From Demequina salsinemoris (GTDB lineage: Bacteria > Actinomycetota > Actinomycetes > Actinomycetales > Demequinaceae), in assembly GCF_000974805.1 (NCBI RefSeq), contig NZ_BBQZ01000008.1, forward strand, positions 1 to 64,000: a stretch of 64,000 nucleotides of DNA, in the 5' to 3' direction. Shown one piece after another: positions 2,895 through 46,519 of this stretch. Both the position numbers and the translations under genes were made by a program. Each line of letters begins with the position of its first letter. Within the stretch, counting starts at the first letter, position 1. The notes under the pieces are model-generated. The model saw only the letters and a list, made by a program, of their open reading frames with translations. It searched no databases and had not been told where the DNA came from.

Positions 2895-4250
2895 TCAGGC
2901 CTCCGTGTCCACCGGCGTGCCGTGCGTCGCCTCGTCCGCGATACCGCGACGGCGGGCGATCCAGCCCAGGCCGTGGTAGATCACGAGCGCGGCGAGCGAG
3001 CCGAGCGCGATGCCGTTGAACAGCATCGTCCCTGCGTGCGCCGTGAAGTCGGCGGTGCCGACGATCAGTGCGACGGCCGCGGTGACCAGGTTCACCGGTT
3101 TCGTGAAGTCGACCTTCGCCTCGATCCAGATGCGCGCGCCAAGGATCGCGATGAGGCCGAACAGCAGCGTCGACAGGCCGCCCAGGATGCCCTGGGGGAT
3201 GACCTCGACCATCGCGCCGAACTTCGGCACGACGCTCAGCAGCAGCGCGAACGCGGCGGCCGCCCAGTAGGCGAGGGTCGAGTACACGCGGGTCGCGGCC
3301 ATCACGCCGATGTTCTCCGCGTACGTGGTGGTGCCGGAACCGCCGCCGAGGCCCGCGACGGTCGTGGCGAGACCGTCGGCCAGCAGCGCGCGGCCGGTCT
3401 CGGGGTCCAGGTTCCGGTCCGTCATCGCGGACACGGACTTCAGGTGGCCGATGTTCTCGGCGACCAGGATGAGGACGACGGGCACGAAGGCCATGAGGAC
3501 GCTCGTGTCGAACGTCGGGGTGTGGAACTTCGGGATGCCGAACCAGGCGGCGTCGCCGATGTGCTCGACCGCGGTGGCGCCGTCCCACGCCTCGAGCGGC
3601 GCGGTCCACTCGCCGCGCAGTGCCGCGAAGATCGCGCCGACGACGCCGCCGAACAGGATCGCGATGCGGCTGAGGAAGCCCTTGAACGCGACCATCGCGA
3701 TGAGCGTCGCCGACAGGGTGATGAGCGCCGTCCAAGGGCTGACGCTCCACTGGTTCCAGGCCGCGCCCGCGAGGTTGAGGCCGATGAGCGCGACGATCGC
3801 GCCGGTCACGACCGGGGGCATCGACTTCTCGATCCAGCCCGCGCCGAAGCGCATCACGATCAGGCCGACGAGCGACATCAGAAGGCCCGCGAGCAGGATG
3901 CCGCCGAGGCCCTTGGCGATCGTCTCGCCGTCGAGCGGGCCGTTGGCGGAAGTCACGCCCGCCGCGGCGAGCGGCGCGATGAACGCGAAGCTCGATCCCA
4001 GGTACGACGGCACGCGGTTGCGGGTCACCGTGAGGAACAGCGCCGTGCCGATCGCGGAGAAGAACATCGTGGTCGACGCGGGCATGCCGGTGAGGGCCGG
4101 GACCAGCAGCGTCGAGCCCATCATGGCGAGCACGTGCTGCATCCCGATGCCGATGGTGCGGGGGTAGGTGAGGCGCTCGTCGGGGGCGACGGCCACGCCT
4201 GGCGCGATCGTCCTTCCATCCCCGTGCAGCGTCCAGCTGAACATGCTCAT
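2895..4250 (-). CDS. uraA: Uracil permease (NCS2 family)
   Basis: A 451-residue polytopic membrane protein of the nucleobase:cation symporter-2 family. It shows QHVLAMMGSTLLVPALTG near residue 38, VPSYLGSSFAFIAP, AENIGHL and GGSGTTTYAENIGV. These correspond to the UraA blocks that hold the uracil-contacting glutamates in the AEHIGHL-like and YGEN-like segments. The family has 14 membrane spans, consistent with the hydrophobic pattern. The second NCS2 protein of the window (33944-35413) is more like xanthine/urate carriers. The ATG at 4250 has AAGGAG nine bases upstream. No pyrimidine genes are adjacent, so the assignment rests on sequence alone. Proton-coupled uracil uptake is inferred from the family. 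Confidence 0.85.
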   Translation of the reverse strand: MSMFSWTLHGDGRTIAPGVAVAPDERLTYPRTIGIGMQHVLAMMGSTLLVPALTGMPASTTMFFSAIGTALFLTVTRNRVPSYLGSSFAFIAPLAAAGVTSANGPLDGETIAKGLGGILLAGLLMSLVGLIVMRFGAGWIEKSMPPVVTGAIVALIGLNLAGAAWNQWSVSPWTALITLSATLIAMVAFKGFLSRIAILFGGVVGAIFAALRGEWTAPLEAWDGATAVEHIGDAAWFGIPKFHTPTFDTSVLMAFVPVVLILVAENIGHLKSVSAMTDRNLDPETGRALLADGLATTVAGLGGGSGTTTYAENIGVMAATRVYSTLAYWAAAAFALLLSVVPKFGAMVEVIPQGILGGLSTLLFGLIAILGARIWIEAKVDFTKPVNLVTAAVALIVGTADFTAHAGTMLFNGIALGSLAALVIYHGLGWIARRRGIADEATHGTPVDTEA

Positions 4251-41274: not shown

Positions 41275-41730
41275 GTGACCTCACGCAAGATCGTCAAGAC
41301 CGACGCCGAATGGCGCGCCCAGCTCAGCGACATCGAGTTCCAAGTGCTCCGCGAGGCGGCCACCGAGCGCCCCTGGACGGGGGAGCTGCTCGAGGAGAAG
41401 CGCTCGGGCACCTTCACGTGCCGCGCGTGCGGCGCGGAGCTGTTCCGCTCGGACACCAAGTTCGACTCGCACTGCGGTTGGCCCTCGTTCTTCGACCCGC
41501 AGGACTCCGAGGCCGTGACGCTTCACGAGGACCTCAGCCACGGCATGGTCCGCACCGAGGTGCGCTGCGCCGCATGCGAGTCCCACCTGGGCCATGTGTT
41601 CCCCGACGCCCCGCAGACCCCCACCGGCGATCGCTACTGCATCAACTCGGTCAGCCTCGGCTTCACCGAGGACGCGGCGACGTCCGCCCCGACCCCCGCC
41701 GAGTTCGGCGCCTCGGACGGAGACCTGTAG
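41275..41730 (+). CDS. msrB: Peptide-methionine (R)-S-oxide reductase
   Basis: A 151-residue MsrB that repairs methionine-R-sulfoxide in proteins. The catalytic Cys is C122 in RYCINSVSL. Four zinc cysteines are at C49, C52, C98 and C101 (CRAC and CAAC). The block HCGWPSFF is at 66-73. A 20-residue C-terminal tail is non-conserved. The GTG start follows GGAAGGAG. It is co-directional with and immediately adjacent to the next gene. A tandem repeat array precedes it. Confidence 0.93.
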   Translation: MTSRKIVKTDAEWRAQLSDIEFQVLREAATERPWTGELLEEKRSGTFTCRACGAELFRSDTKFDSHCGWPSFFDPQDSEAVTLHEDLSHGMVRTEVRCAACESHLGHVFPDAPQTPTGDRYCINSVSLGFTEDAATSAPTPAEFGASDGDL

Positions 41731-42360
41731 GTGGCCGAGCCGCGCTTCCGCCGTCCCGCCATGCTCGACATGGAGGAGGCCGAGCAGATCGAGGGGGACA
41801 TCGATCCCGCCGATCGGGCCCTCATCGCTCACGAGACCGCGCACGCGATGGTCTCGCAGGCGCGCGCGTCGCAGGACCCCGCGCTCGTCGACCGGCTGAT
41901 CCGGCTCGTTGACGAGGAGGGCATCGACACGGTCGCGATGCTCTGGTCCAAGGCGGAGGCGCACACGCTGCCCGGCTCGCTGTGGCGGCTGTACATGATC
42001 CGCGAGTGGGTCAAGAACGACGGTGCGGCGGTCGCGAGGTCGTACCACCACGGCGTCCAGGCCGCGCACGTGCGGCACGCGATCGCCGGCGTCGAGGACC
42101 CGCCCGGGCCTGAGGAGGTCCAGCGCCTCGCCGACGCGATCCTCTCGGGCGTCTACGCGGGCGACCTCGCGGTCGCGCTCGAGCGGGCCGGAGCGTTCTG
42201 CCGCGTGGTCGCCACGGGCGTCGCGTTCGAGGCGGAGTCCGACGAGGGCCACGCCGACGCCCGCGCCCACAAGACGACGATGCGCGCCGCGCAGCTCCTG
42301 CGCACCGGCGAGGACCTCGAGACCAACGCGCGCATGTGGCGCGAGGAGCGTCTCGACTGA
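41731..42360 (+). CDS. Conserved actinobacterial protein of unknown function
   Basis: A 209-residue all-helical, acidic soluble protein. Conserved-looking segments are RALIAHETAHAMV, LPGSLWRLYMIREWVK, GVEDPPGPEEVQRLADAILSG and ERAGAFCRVVATG. I recall similar proteins in other Micrococcales carrying misleading names, but I know no function. The GTG start is the first codon after the msrB stop, with GGAGA upstream, so the two genes form an operon. It has no catalytic motif I can point to. Confidence 0.65.
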   Translation: MAEPRFRRPAMLDMEEAEQIEGDIDPADRALIAHETAHAMVSQARASQDPALVDRLIRLVDEEGIDTVAMLWSKAEAHTLPGSLWRLYMIREWVKNDGAAVARSYHHGVQAAHVRHAIAGVEDPPGPEEVQRLADAILSGVYAGDLAVALERAGAFCRVVATGVAFEAESDEGHADARAHKTTMRAAQLLRTGEDLETNARMWREERLD

Positions 42361-42370
42361 ATCGGCGCCG

Positions 42371-43021
42371 TCAGTCCTGAGGCGGAGCGTTGCGCCGGTG
42401 CGTGAAGGCGTGGAACTCGTCCATCGTCATCGGCGCCTCGGGCAGCTCGTGGCGCGTGGAGGTCGCGCGCATGCCGTCGAGCGCGATGAGGATCGCGCGT
42501 CGCAGGGCGTCGCGCTCCACGCCCTGCGGGTGCCCGACGAACGATCCCAGCGCGAACATCGTGAGCGTGATGTCCCCGAGCTTGAGATCCTCGCGCATCT
42601 CACCCTCGGCCTTCGCCGCGGCGACGAGATCGGCGAACGGCGCCGCCATCACCTGGGTGGGCGCGTACTCCGGCTCCACCTCATACATGAGGCGCATGAC
42701 GGCGCGCAGCCCGGGAAGGTCGGCGAGCAGCAGCACGACGGACTCGACGAGCCCCGCGAAGCGCTCCCACGCGCTCTCCGTCTCAGGCGGCATCCTCAGG
42801 CCCGCCGTGAACTCCTCGGCCGCGCGATCGTACAGCGCCCGCACCAGGGCGTCGTGGTCGGGGAAGTGCCGGTAGGCGGTTCCCGCGCCGACGCCCGCGG
42901 CGGCCGCGAGCTCGTTGACGGACACGTCGGCGTTGCGCGAGCCGAGCAGGTCGAACGCCGTCGCGAGGAGGCGCTCGTGGTTGGCGACCGCGTCCTTGCG
43001 CGGGCGACGTGGCTCGATCAT
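42371..43021 (-). CDS. TetR family transcriptional regulator
   Basis: A 216-residue regulator. HERLLATAFDLLGSRNADVSVNELAAAAGVGAGTAYRHFPDHDALVRALYD is the TetR DNA-binding domain (residues about 15-63) and the helical C-terminal ligand domain follows. The ATG is six bases from a minus-strand TAGACT (43028-43033), so the mRNA is probably leaderless. The SBP-like C-terminal pattern is common in regulators of efflux or stress genes; the target is unknown. It is convergent with the msrB operon, and a structured region lies upstream. Confidence 0.85.
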   Translation of the reverse strand: MIEPRRPRKDAVANHERLLATAFDLLGSRNADVSVNELAAAAGVGAGTAYRHFPDHDALVRALYDRAAEEFTAGLRMPPETESAWERFAGLVESVVLLLADLPGLRAVMRLMYEVEPEYAPTQVMAAPFADLVAAAKAEGEMREDLKLGDITLTMFALGSFVGHPQGVERDALRRAILIALDGMRATSTRHELPEAPMTMDEFHAFTHRRNAPPQD

Positions 43022-43102
43022 CCCGCCAGTCTAGGAGCGGACGATGCGGCTGTTCGCGCAGCGCCGAAGGGGTGGGCCGGGCGTCGGTTCCGGGTTACAT
43101 TA

Positions 43103-43196
43103 GAGGGGACGTCGGACCGTGGTAGCCCCGGGCTCCAAATCCAGCCGCCAAGAGCGGCCTTCGCGCCGACTGGCGCTCCCGGTCCGGCGTCTTCTC
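43103..43196 (+). ncRNA. Candidate structured RNA with 17-bp closing helix
   Basis: Bases 43103-43119 pair with 43180-43196 in a continuous 17-pair helix (three G-U pairs, otherwise Watson-Crick; core GACGTCGGACCG/CGGTCCGGCGTC). The 60 bases inside make three hairpins: GG(T)AGCC/GGCTCC (43121-43136), GCCGC/GCGGC with CAAGA loop (43144-43158), and GCGCC/GGCGC with GACT loop (43163-43176). TACATT at 43096-43101 could be a plus-strand -10 box. No protein frame fits, and it resembles no tRNA, SRP RNA, tmRNA or riboswitch I can identify. The opposite strand folds equally well, so a leader of the TetR gene is an alternative. Confidence 0.5.
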
Positions 43197-43307: not shown

Positions 43308-44282
43308 CTAGAGCGGGACCTGAAGTCCGTGCGACTCCACCGCGACCACCTGGGCCCCCGACTCCGTCGACCGCAGATGCGCGACCAGGACGCCTCCTGC
43401 GGGAAGGTACGGGTTGGAGCGGGGCAGGGCGCCGTAGGTGTACGGACGGCGCGCGGCGCGCACCATCTCGATGATCGTCGGCAGCGTCGGCCGGTGCACG
43501 CAGATCACCCGCGCCACGTCCTTGTCGAGCAGCCTCTGCAGCAGCGTCGCCGTGCGCGCGGGGTCCGACGCGTGGAGCGGCTCGGTGAGCGCCGTGTGGG
43601 TCTTGATCGGGATCCCCGACGCCTCCGCGAAGGGGCGGACCGTCGCCATCGTCCGCTCGGCGGGGGACGACGCGATCTTCGAGGCGCCGAAGGCCGCGAA
43701 CAGCGGCACGAGCTGCTCGGCCCGCTCGGCACCGCGCTTCGTGATCGGCCGCGCGAGGTCGGTGCCGTGCCACGCCTTGCGACGCTTCGCGCGCGCGTGC
43801 CTCGCGATGACGAACGCGTGCGTGTCGAGCCGCTCGTTCTCGTACGCGGTCACGAGCGCCGACAGGGGGCGCAGGTCGTCCTTGAAGGTGATCCGGCGGT
43901 AGGCCTCGTCGATGCCGAGCCACGCGCTGCGGTCCACCTCGTCCTTGTTCACCGGAGGAACCGGCGGTCGGGCGGAGACCGCGCGGCTGCTCTTGGACGC
44001 GACGCGCGCCGCCCAGTACTTCACGACCTTGGTCTTGTCTCCCGCGATGGGATACCTCAGCGACGGCAGCGGCTGCCCGAGCACCACCTGCTTGCCCGTC
44101 TCCTCCGCGACCTCGCGGATCGCGCACGCCGGCAGGGTCTCACCCGGGTCGAGCTTGCCCTTGGGCCACGACCAGTCGTTGTAGCGCGGACGATGCACGG
44201 CGAGCACCTGCAGCTCGTCGTCATGGATCCGCCAGACGATCGCGCCCGCCGCGACGACGGTGCCGGGTGGGTACCGCCTCAC
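43308..44282 (-). CDS. mutT1: MutT1-like NUDIX and histidine phosphatase fusion
   Basis: A 324-residue two-domain protein matching mycobacterial MutT1. The N-terminal NUDIX domain (residues 1-140) has the box [22 protein letters not shown] with all catalytic positions. The C-terminal histidine-phosphatase domain begins at about 170 with ARHARAKRR (RHx motif) and holds [11 protein letters not shown]. MutT1 hydrolyses oxidised nucleotides (8-oxo-dGTP, diadenosine polyphosphates). The GTG start overlaps the ppk stop by four bases, as in the conserved ppk-mutT1 pair of other actinobacteria. Confidence 0.88.
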
Positions 44283-46519
44283 TTGCCGCTTCGCCTCCGC
44301 TGGGGCTGACGCTCGATGTAGAGGGATTGGAGGTCCTTGAGGGGCTTGCCCTCCGCATCGGCGCGCATCGCCTGCCACGAGCCGTCGGAGCGCAGCTCCC
44401 AGGCCCCCGTCCCCGGATCCATCGCGAGGTCGATGGTCTCCTCGAGGAGCGCGATCTGCTCGGGATCGACGATGGTGACGAGCGCCTCGATGCGGCGGTC
44501 GAGGTTGCGGTGCATGAGGTCGGCCGAGCCGATGAAGATCTCGGGCTCCCCGCCGTTCGCGAAGCCGTAGATGCGCGAGTGCTCGAGGAAGCGGCCGAGG
44601 ATCGAGCGCACGCGGATGCTCTCGCTGAGGCCAGGCACGCCGGGACGCAGCGCGCAGATGCCGCGGACCACGCAGTCGACCTTCACGCCGGCCTGGGAGG
44701 CCCGGTAGAGCGCGTCGATGACCTTCTCGTCGACGAGCGAGTTGACCTTGATCTTGACCCAGGCCTCCTCGCCGTTCCTGGCGCGCTCCGCCTCGGCGTC
44801 GATGCGCTCGATCAGCCCCACCCGGATGCCGGTCGGCGCGACGATGAGGCGGCGGAACTTCGCCTTGGGCGCGTAGCCGGAGAGCTGGTTGAAGAGCTTC
44901 GTGAGGTCGGCGCCCACGTCGGGGTTCTTGGTCAGCAGGCCGTAGTCCTCGTACAGGCGCGCGGTCTTGGGGTGATAGTTGCCGGTGCCGACGTGGCAGT
45001 AGCGCTGGAGCCCGTCGTCCTCCTGCCGCACCACGAGAGACAGCTTGCAGTGCGTCTTGAGGCCCACGAGGCCGTAGACCACGTGCACGCCCGACTGCTC
45101 GAGCTTGCGCGCCCACGAGATGTTGCGCTGCTCGTCGAAGCGCGCCTTGATCTCCACGAGCGCGAGGACCTGCTTGCCGTTGCGCGCCGCCTCGATCAGC
45201 GCGTCGACGATGGGGGAGTCGCCCGAGGTGCGATACAGCGTCTGCTTGATCGCGAGGACCTTGGGGTCGGCCGCGGCCTGCGCGAGGAACGCCTGCACCG
45301 AGGTGGAGAACGAGTCGTACGGGTGGTGCAGGAGCACGTCGCCGCGCGAGATCGCGGCGAAGATGTTCTGCTCCTGCGCGGACTCGACCGGGGCGAGCTT
45401 GTGGTGGGTCGTGGGGCGGAACGCCGGGTACTGGAGCTTGGGGCGGTCCAGGTCCGCGATGACGTTCAGGCCCGTGAGGTCGAGCGGCGCGGGGAGGTGG
45501 AACACGTCCATCTCCGTGATGCCGAGCTCGCGCACGAGCAGCTCGCGGATCTTGGGCGGCAGGTTGTCCGCGACCTCGAGGCGCACCGCGGGGCCGAAGC
45601 GGCGGCGCAGCAGCTCCTTCTCCATGGCCTTGAGGAGGTTCTCGGCGTCGTCCTCCTCGACCTCCACGTCCTCGTTGCGGGTGACCCGGAACGTGTAGTG
45701 GTTGATGACCTCCATGCCGGGGAAGAGGTAGTCCAGGTGTGCGCCGATGACGTCCTCGAGCGGCACGAAGCTGCGCGGCTCGTCCGACAGCGACCACGCG
45801 TCGGTGATCTGCGACGCGCGGCCCTCCATGTCCACCGACAGGAAGCGGGGCAGCGTCTCCGGCACCTTGACGCGGGCGAAGTACTCCTTGCCCGATCCGG
45901 GGTCGCGGATCTCGACGGCGAGGTTGAGCGACAGGCCGGAGATGTACGGGAACGGGTGCGCGGGGTCCACGGCGAGCGGGGTGAGCACCGGGAAGATGTC
46001 CGAGCGGTACAGCTTGCGCAGGCGGTTCTGCTCATTGTCGCCCAGCTGCTCGAAGCGGACCAGGTGGATGCCCTCGCGGGCCAGCTCGGGAAGGACGACA
46101 TCCTCGAAGACCGAGGCGTGCTCGTCCATGAGCTGGTGGGCGCGCTCGGTGAGCGACTCGACCAGTCGCGTGGGGCTCATGCCCGTGGCGGACGGGACGG
46201 CGAAGCCCGCCGCGATGCGGCGCTTGAGGCCCGCGACGCGGACCATGAAGAACTCGTCGAGGTTCGAGGCGAAGATCGCGAGGAAGCGCGCGCGCTCGAG
46301 CAGCGGCGTGGTCGGGTCCTCAGCAAGCTGGAGGACGCGCTGGTTGAACGCGAGCCACGACAGCTCGCGGTCCAGATACCGGTCGTCGGGCAGGTCGGCG
46401 AGCGCCTCCCCGTCGTAGACCGGTACGGCCATCGTCTCGTCGGAGACGATCTCGAAGGCCGTGCCTGCTGAGGGAGCGGGCTGAGGTCCCGCCTCGGTGA
46501 GGTCCATGCTGTCCGCCAT
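44279..46519 (-). CDS. ppk1: Polyphosphate kinase
   Basis: A 746-residue PPK1, transferring the terminal phosphate of ATP to polyphosphate. Blocks in order: [19 protein letters not shown] near residue 48, [30 protein letters not shown], the [25 protein letters not shown] region, [20 protein letters not shown] (phospholipase-D-like fold with a histidine), and [13 protein letters not shown] with the second histidine. The ATG at 46519 follows AAGGA; a longer upstream frame is low complexity. Downstream mutT1 overlaps by four bases. The gap upstream has GCATCGTCC copies. Confidence 0.95.

Follow-up and report, generated by a model that had tools for sequence, protein, structure and literature searches.

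To our knowledge, few small RNAs have been characterised in Actinomycetes. 6C RNA (RF01066) is an actinobacterial small RNA with exposed runs of C, borne on two stem-loops that each contain at least six C (PMC8388888, in its accessible part). In Streptomyces coelicolor, scr2952 was reported by Vockenhuber et al. (2011), as given in the accessible part of PMC8388888, where its expression is described as confirmed and the RNA as present in Rfam and shared by over half of the Streptomyces tested. The available description speaks of conservation among Streptomyces, and neither a structure nor a promoter type nor a family spanning the class is given in it. For S. clavuligerus, the accessible text of PMC11678152 presents nine conserved gaps that have a promoter, a terminator and an RNAz signal and no Rfam entry; these could include the RNA described here. 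The Streptomyces motifs in the available portion of PMC11109978 are gene leaders, and 10 sRNA candidates are also given there. In Bifidobacterium animalis, the 102 nt sRNA IGR-136 is listed with a response regulator gene on one side and a phosphate transport gene on the other (PMC4338058, accessible part). A class-wide description of the present RNA was not recognised among the open-licence papers listed by literature searches.

The present locus lies in Demequina salsinemoris, in a stretch of 64,000 nucleotides that was analysed as a whole (hereafter the window). The candidate RNA, 94 bases at 43103-43196 on the plus strand, is intergenic. On one side is a tetR-family gene (42371-43021, minus strand; PF00440), and on the other the stop, at 43308, of a minus-strand gene with NUDIX and histidine-phosphatase domains (43308-44300; PF00293 and PF00300; start codon not fixed), whose product is presumably MutT1-like. 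A sequence-only reading of the window had placed a structured RNA between TetR and mutT1 genes, had seen no plausible protein frame there and had recognised neither tRNA nor SRP RNA, and in these respects it was borne out. A coding sequence was rejected: full-length matches measure 91-99 nt (one partial match, 82), their indels are not in threes and the helices covary. The Rfam comparison which that reading had proposed gave no family at the Rfam 15 gathering cut-off for the RNA in the window, in 20 loci of the order or in 18 loci of the class. The best sub-threshold score belongs to tRNA-Sec (RF01852), with which the RNA shares a long terminal helix, a length of about 94 nt and the same ends; the score is 16.5 bits where the gathering cut-off is 47, ARAGORN calls no tRNA at the locus, and a tRNA-like or tRNA-Sec identity was rejected. 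MIR8670 (15.7 bits) and Rubella_3 (15.0 bits) also scored far below cut-off in the window. Bacterial small SRP RNA (RF00169, gathering score 40 bits) is of similar length but different fold; it was rejected as well, having no match at the locus, and the SRP RNA of this genome lies elsewhere (G000:C20:90638-90734). There was likewise no Rfam match to 6C RNA at the locus, and although both RNAs expose runs of C, those of the present one are 4-5 C long and lie on a single C-rich strand.

How widely is this RNA conserved? A DNA search of 59 genomes, that of the window included, gave a match in 57; the match in G029 covers flank only, which leaves the RNA in 56 of the 59, the copies outside the own genome having 76-96% DNA identity to the window. 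A copy in G041 was added by a covariance model, beyond the DNA search, and no RNA match was obtained with the covariance model in the fragmented assemblies G013 and G029. The conserved block runs from about 43105 to 43191 of the window, and the flanks diverge. A core at 43108-43191 (plus strand) is supported by the DNA matches in relatives and by the matches of two covariance models. The first of these (R1), built from 48 sequences, matched 121 genomes in a class sample of 246; in a phylum sample of 149 it matched 10, every one of which belongs to the class. The second (R2), built from 56 sequences, matched 42 of 44 Demequina genomes (own genome included), 230 of 394 genomes of the class Actinomycetes and 14 of 198 phylum genomes, all 14 in that class; the genome samples behind the R1 and R2 counts overlap and include the own genome. 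The window matches R1 at 43104-43196 with 106.8 bits and R2, which models the helices P1, P3 and P4, over the same positions with 89.7 bits (E 6.0e-16). The window RNA is among the R2 building sequences, so that its own match to R2 follows by construction, and covariation serves as the independent test.

Carriers include Bifidobacterium, Actinomyces, Rothia, Arthrobacter, Kocuria, Brevibacterium, Cellulomonas, Curtobacterium, Ornithinimicrobium and Micropruina, with further copies in Streptomyces-like genomes (family f37, about 6-11 Mb). No RNA was found at E <= 0.001 in G060, G121 and eight further class members that were looked at more closely. Among the matches listed, most genomes carry a single copy; three are present in G134 and a tandem pair in G264. 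Multiple copies in some genomes suit regulators that multiply. At locus L098, tandem RNA copies (3001-3095 and 3183-3277) each have their own GGAA-N-GTT promoter-like sequence. The plasmid collection gave a single match, at 75%, on a 754-kb Arthrobacter replicon. Matches in the phage collection comprise three human-faecal records (two over 76-87 bases and one over just 25 bases) and seven chance-level matches to Mycobacterium phages. The two longer ones, in ‘Bacteriophage sp.’ records MT835541.1 (30647-30733, 83%) and MT838127.1 (59-133, 79%), are unannotated and may stem from bacterial DNA binned with phage or from a copy that a phage carries.

Folded as a single sequence, 43103-43196 on the plus strand has a minimum free energy of -57.2 kcal/mol, against a mean of -39.45 (sd 3.65) for shuffled sequences (z -4.86; no shuffle out of 200 was as stable). 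Folding is clearly poorer for the minus strand (z -2.27; four of 200 shuffles as stable). The closing helix of 17 pairs predicted earlier (43103-43119 with 43180-43196) does form in the fold of the window, but conservation in relatives is limited to its inner 12 pairs (P1, 43108-43119 with 43180-43191). The outer five pairs (43103-43107 with 43192-43196) are not conserved and are likely not all transcribed; they appear doubtful because the spacing of the -10 box discussed below would put the transcript start near the base of P1, at about 43108.

Comparison across the class gives the strongest evidence for structure. The main covariation set holds 101 aligned matches, 98 of them distinct; some represent one place twice (e.g., L057/L087, L082/L099 and L046/L120), and the counts are therefore not fully independent. 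Both-side changes occur in 15 of 23 pairs and in 216 cells of the alignment, against 47.7 in shuffled alignments, a value that none of 500 shuffles reached and that lies far above slid controls. In P1 all 12 pairs have both-side changes and 98.1% of cells are paired. Alignments A2-A4 were fitted to structure models, so pair counts lean toward the model, but A1, a MAFFT alignment of 48 sequences made before any class-wide model, bears out P1 independently, with both-side changes in nine of its 12 pairs. Three minus-strand matches in A2 were excluded from later analyses. Taken with the single-sequence fold, these results, with covariation present where the earlier reading had proposed to look for it, uphold its claim of a real structured RNA, and the RNA is almost certainly a member of a widely conserved structured RNA gene family.

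The same alignment speaks to the strand. Non-Watson-Crick cells in P1 comprise 109 G-U or U-G against 6 A-C or C-A, and because the former far exceed the latter, the plus strand is taken to be the functional RNA. Such an excess is not expected of a strand-symmetric DNA palindrome, and together with the promoter-like motif that stands at a fixed interval it speaks against a DNA-level element such as an inverted repeat or protein site, to which the long inverted-repeat arms might otherwise point. A decayed tRNA-like gene could be read from the weak tRNA-Sec score over the same ends, but that score lies far under its gathering value and no tRNA is called; either origin is barely credible.

The two inner hairpins nearer the 3′ side are conserved as the earlier reading drew them. 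P3 (43144-43158, plus strand; GCCGC-CAAGA-GCGGC) has 100% of cells paired and one pair with both-side changes, C-G becoming U-A in 11 of 98 sequences, and the GA of its loop is nearly invariant. P4 (43164-43175, plus strand; CGCC-GACU-GGCG), also with 100% of cells paired, is nearly invariant, and its loop is GAGA, GUGA or GCGA in many other genera. The first of the three hairpins then proposed, AGCC-CCG-GGCU, is weakly supported by comparison, and the same bases appear to covary better with bases on the 3′ side. When the columns were searched for covariation, P1 and one P3 pair were recovered along with a new helix, P2 (columns 28-29 with 87-88), for which mutual information and both-side changes give support. 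Its 5′ strand GG(U)AG (43121-43125, with 43123 bulged) would pair with CUCC (43176-43179): the inner pairs are A43124-U43177 and G43125-C43176, and around the bulge G43121-G43122 with C43178-C43179 extend them. Each inner pair is formed in 88 of 98 sequences and has 11 both-side changes; support for the outer two comes from the variant table only.

The first hairpin uses the same A and G as P2, and its first and second pairs are formed in 84 and 54 of the 98 sequences, respectively. In 26 sequences the P2 bases AG/CU are retained while the hairpin partner is UC. In a re-pairing test of P2, for which sequences whose P4 has grown by a U-A pair (6 of 101) were first shifted by one, both inner pairs are formed in 39 of 49 distinct variants, against 26.2 expected and a maximum of 34 in 2000 shuffles. 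Energy favours the hairpin, at -57.2 kcal/mol in the window against -48.5 kcal/mol for the comparative structure; single-sequence folding makes the hairpin probable in 49 of the 101 sequences and P2 in 15. RNAalifold, on the same alignment, retains three hairpin pairs, the outer one with six both-side changes and broken in 14 of 101. Because energies and RNAalifold keep the hairpin while comparison backs P2, the RNA may have two alternative states. In the comparative model, P1 and P2 would thus form one long terminal stem that closes a three-way junction with P3 and P4, and the strand CCCCGGGCUCCAA (43126-43138, plus strand), in which CCCCGGG is nearly invariant (alignment A4), is predicted to be open and single-stranded. 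Across the class, conservation is about as high at unpaired positions as at paired ones.

Upstream of the RNA, the hexamer TACATT (43096-43101, plus strand) is the -10 box of its presumed promoter; the box that had been suspected here is indeed directly adjacent. In the promoter set (100 of the 101 matches, with L120 dropped for lack of upstream DNA), a TANNNT box lies within about 14 nt upstream of the model start, at the same interval as in the window, in 75 loci, compared with 1.3% of 900 shifted tests. A second motif, GGAA(T/C/A)-N16-20-G(T/C)T, precedes the RNA in 27 loci, against 0.22% in shifted tests. One motif or the other is present in 85 loci and both in 17, often overlapping as in GGAAC...GTTAGNNT; the promoter and terminator windows were fixed after inspection of 48 matches. 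GGAAT-N18-GTT is the promoter type of the stress sigma factors SigR of Streptomyces and SigH of Mycobacterium and Corynebacterium. SigR/SigH-like stress promoters at the copies of other lineages are therefore possible. None of six Demequina loci tested has the GGAA-type motif, and the window copy carries the TACATT box alone. In six loci of family f38 (L071, L072, L075, L077, L080 and L089) there is no box at the usual upstream place, and P1 follows a conserved leader whose last bases are GGCCCTC or GGCTCTC; transcription in this family may start further upstream than elsewhere.

At the other end, the 75 nt that follow P1 contain a terminator-like hairpin at 13 of 101 loci (one place being represented twice among the 13), compared with 16 of 700 background windows; no intrinsic terminator was found by the same test in the other 88. 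T is enriched directly after P1 (0.25 against 0.15). Could the RNA then be the leader or attenuator of a downstream gene? On the same strand a PhoU-like gene follows in 13 and a PitA-like gene in 11 of 47 neighbourhoods (Pfam was run on the L031 members only), as a cis-acting element would allow. Against this, the next gene is on the opposite strand in the window and at many other loci, the terminator-like hairpins directly follow P1, and no gene is common to all 47 neighbourhoods, the downstream genes varying by lineage. A cis-acting role is accordingly rated highly improbable, and with its own promoter-like motif upstream and mixed downstream genes the RNA looks like a standalone gene.

A frequent neighbour lies mostly on the 5′ side. 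A plus-strand gene at 41731-42360 of the window encodes an orphan protein of 209 aa, and a homologue lies within about 2.6 kb of the RNA in 23 of the 47 loci, in 21 of those upstream and on the same strand; none was detected in the other 24 neighbourhoods examined. The family is regarded as linked to the RNA. Immediately 5′ of the orphan gene in the window is an msrB-like gene with a SelR domain (41275-41730, plus strand), of thiol/oxidative stress type. In Bifidobacteriaceae the orphan gene is near the RNA in 9 of 11 loci, two of which are among the 47. At none of the 11 does the RNA have a gene related to the L031 response regulator nearby, and the idea that IGR-136 is this RNA finds no support in these loci, which are from Bifidobacteriaceae other than B. 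animalis. The orphan protein is modelled by AlphaFold with a mean pLDDT of 84.1 as a predicted all-helical bundle. It matched no Pfam or NCBIfam family above cut-off, and its best PDB profile match has an E of 0.23. For the model, Foldseek gave nothing at E <= 0.001, and the best VIA-align hit (Z 6.7) is uninformative.

What might such an RNA do? The account considered probable is that of a standalone regulatory RNA with its own promoter and a displayed C-rich strand. The locus would encode a small RNA of about 85-100 nt that belongs to a class-wide Actinomycetes family, transcribed from a sigma-70-like -10 box here and, in other lineages, putatively from SigR/SigH-like promoters, alone or overlapping. 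P1, continued by P2 with its bulge, would close a three-way junction with P3 and P4, and the junction would display the strand CCCCGGG-YY-CCA. The RNA may then act in trans, short C-rich stretches pairing with G-rich, Shine-Dalgarno-like sites in mRNAs, and part of its role may lie in the response to thiol-oxidative stress.

Base pairing by the C-rich strand is a tentative part of this account, rated somewhat less likely than not. In 44 Demequina genomes the exact complement of the 13-base strand was found at the own RNA locus only in 39, with an extra match in three and no match in two; the reversed control pattern has two matches in the same genomes, about the level of the three extra matches. 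Since the extra matches are at control level, there appears to be no conserved long perfect target in these 44 genomes, and short seeds or a protein partner remain as modes of action. Lineages differ in the CU/UC part of the strand, which is therefore not a fixed anti-Shine-Dalgarno word.

A protein partner is the substance of another explanation, in which the junction with its C-rich strand, the P3 loop and P4 would form the site for a conserved protein, either sequestered or held in an RNP. The conservation of unpaired bases, the lack of a conserved perfect mRNA complement in the Demequina search and the frequent adjacency of the orphan family would all suit such a site. However, the helical bundle predicted for that neighbour has no informative match and no homologue of the protein was detected in 24 of the neighbourhoods examined, while the RNAs bound by RNA polymerase in S. 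coelicolor RIP-seq (scr3559 and scr0792, in the accessible account) bear other locus names. Protein binding as the main function is considered rather unlikely. More speculative, and unlikelier again, is a scheme in which the C-rich strand would switch between an open state (P2) and a closed one (the AGCC-CCG-GGCU hairpin), the junction RNA being in part controlled by thiol-stress sigma factors and acting as a global stress RNA of 6S-like breadth, either by way of a conserved protein or on the translation machinery.

The standalone regulatory RNA favoured here may already have been glimpsed in Streptomyces. The Streptomyces-like copies L102 and L103 have a HelD/HelR-type gene on one side and a malic enzyme gene on the other, a neighbourhood that differs from that in Demequina. 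In S. coelicolor, SCO2952 is helD (PMC8655204, accessible part) and SCO2951 is malic enzyme (PMC7494193, accessible part). By the available accounts, scr4677 (PMC8388888) and scr0792 (the S. coelicolor RIP-seq work) are located between genes N-1 and N. From location and naming, it is quite likely that scr2952 is the S. coelicolor member of the family. According to the accessible text of PMC4681348, sRNAs are named after the nearest gene, so scr2952 could sit on the other side of SCO2952, which weakens the location argument. Nor does Rfam 15 have a match at cut-off on L102 or L103, against the statement in the available part of PMC8388888 that scr2952 is in Rfam. With the threshold for L102 relaxed to E <= 10, Thr_leader, over that copy, reaches 29.5 bits (cut-off 55; E 0.0017), in a match that includes the terminator-like hairpin. 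RF02826 was rejected as scr2952, being Scr6925, and the list of Rfam hits for S. lividans (PMC8079986, section 7) has no scr2952 entry. There is no mention of scr2952 in the accessible portions of PMC3765725, PMC11077062, PMC6344877, PMC10771440 and PMC6767563, and none of six looked-for terms is present in that of PMC8632094. The earlier description of the RNA as undescribed holds as far as Rfam 15 is concerned, but one member was probably detected before, as scr2952.

The family is a new one of a known kind, the bacterial standalone small RNA. A strongly covarying RNA present in more than half of the sampled genomes of its class is the sort of core RNA that would be expected to have been catalogued already. 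It yields a covariance model ready for annotation and a structural hypothesis with a clear alternative, and the SigR/SigH-like promoters upstream of other lineages' copies suggest that, in Streptomyces and its relatives, the thiol-stress response may have an RNA arm.
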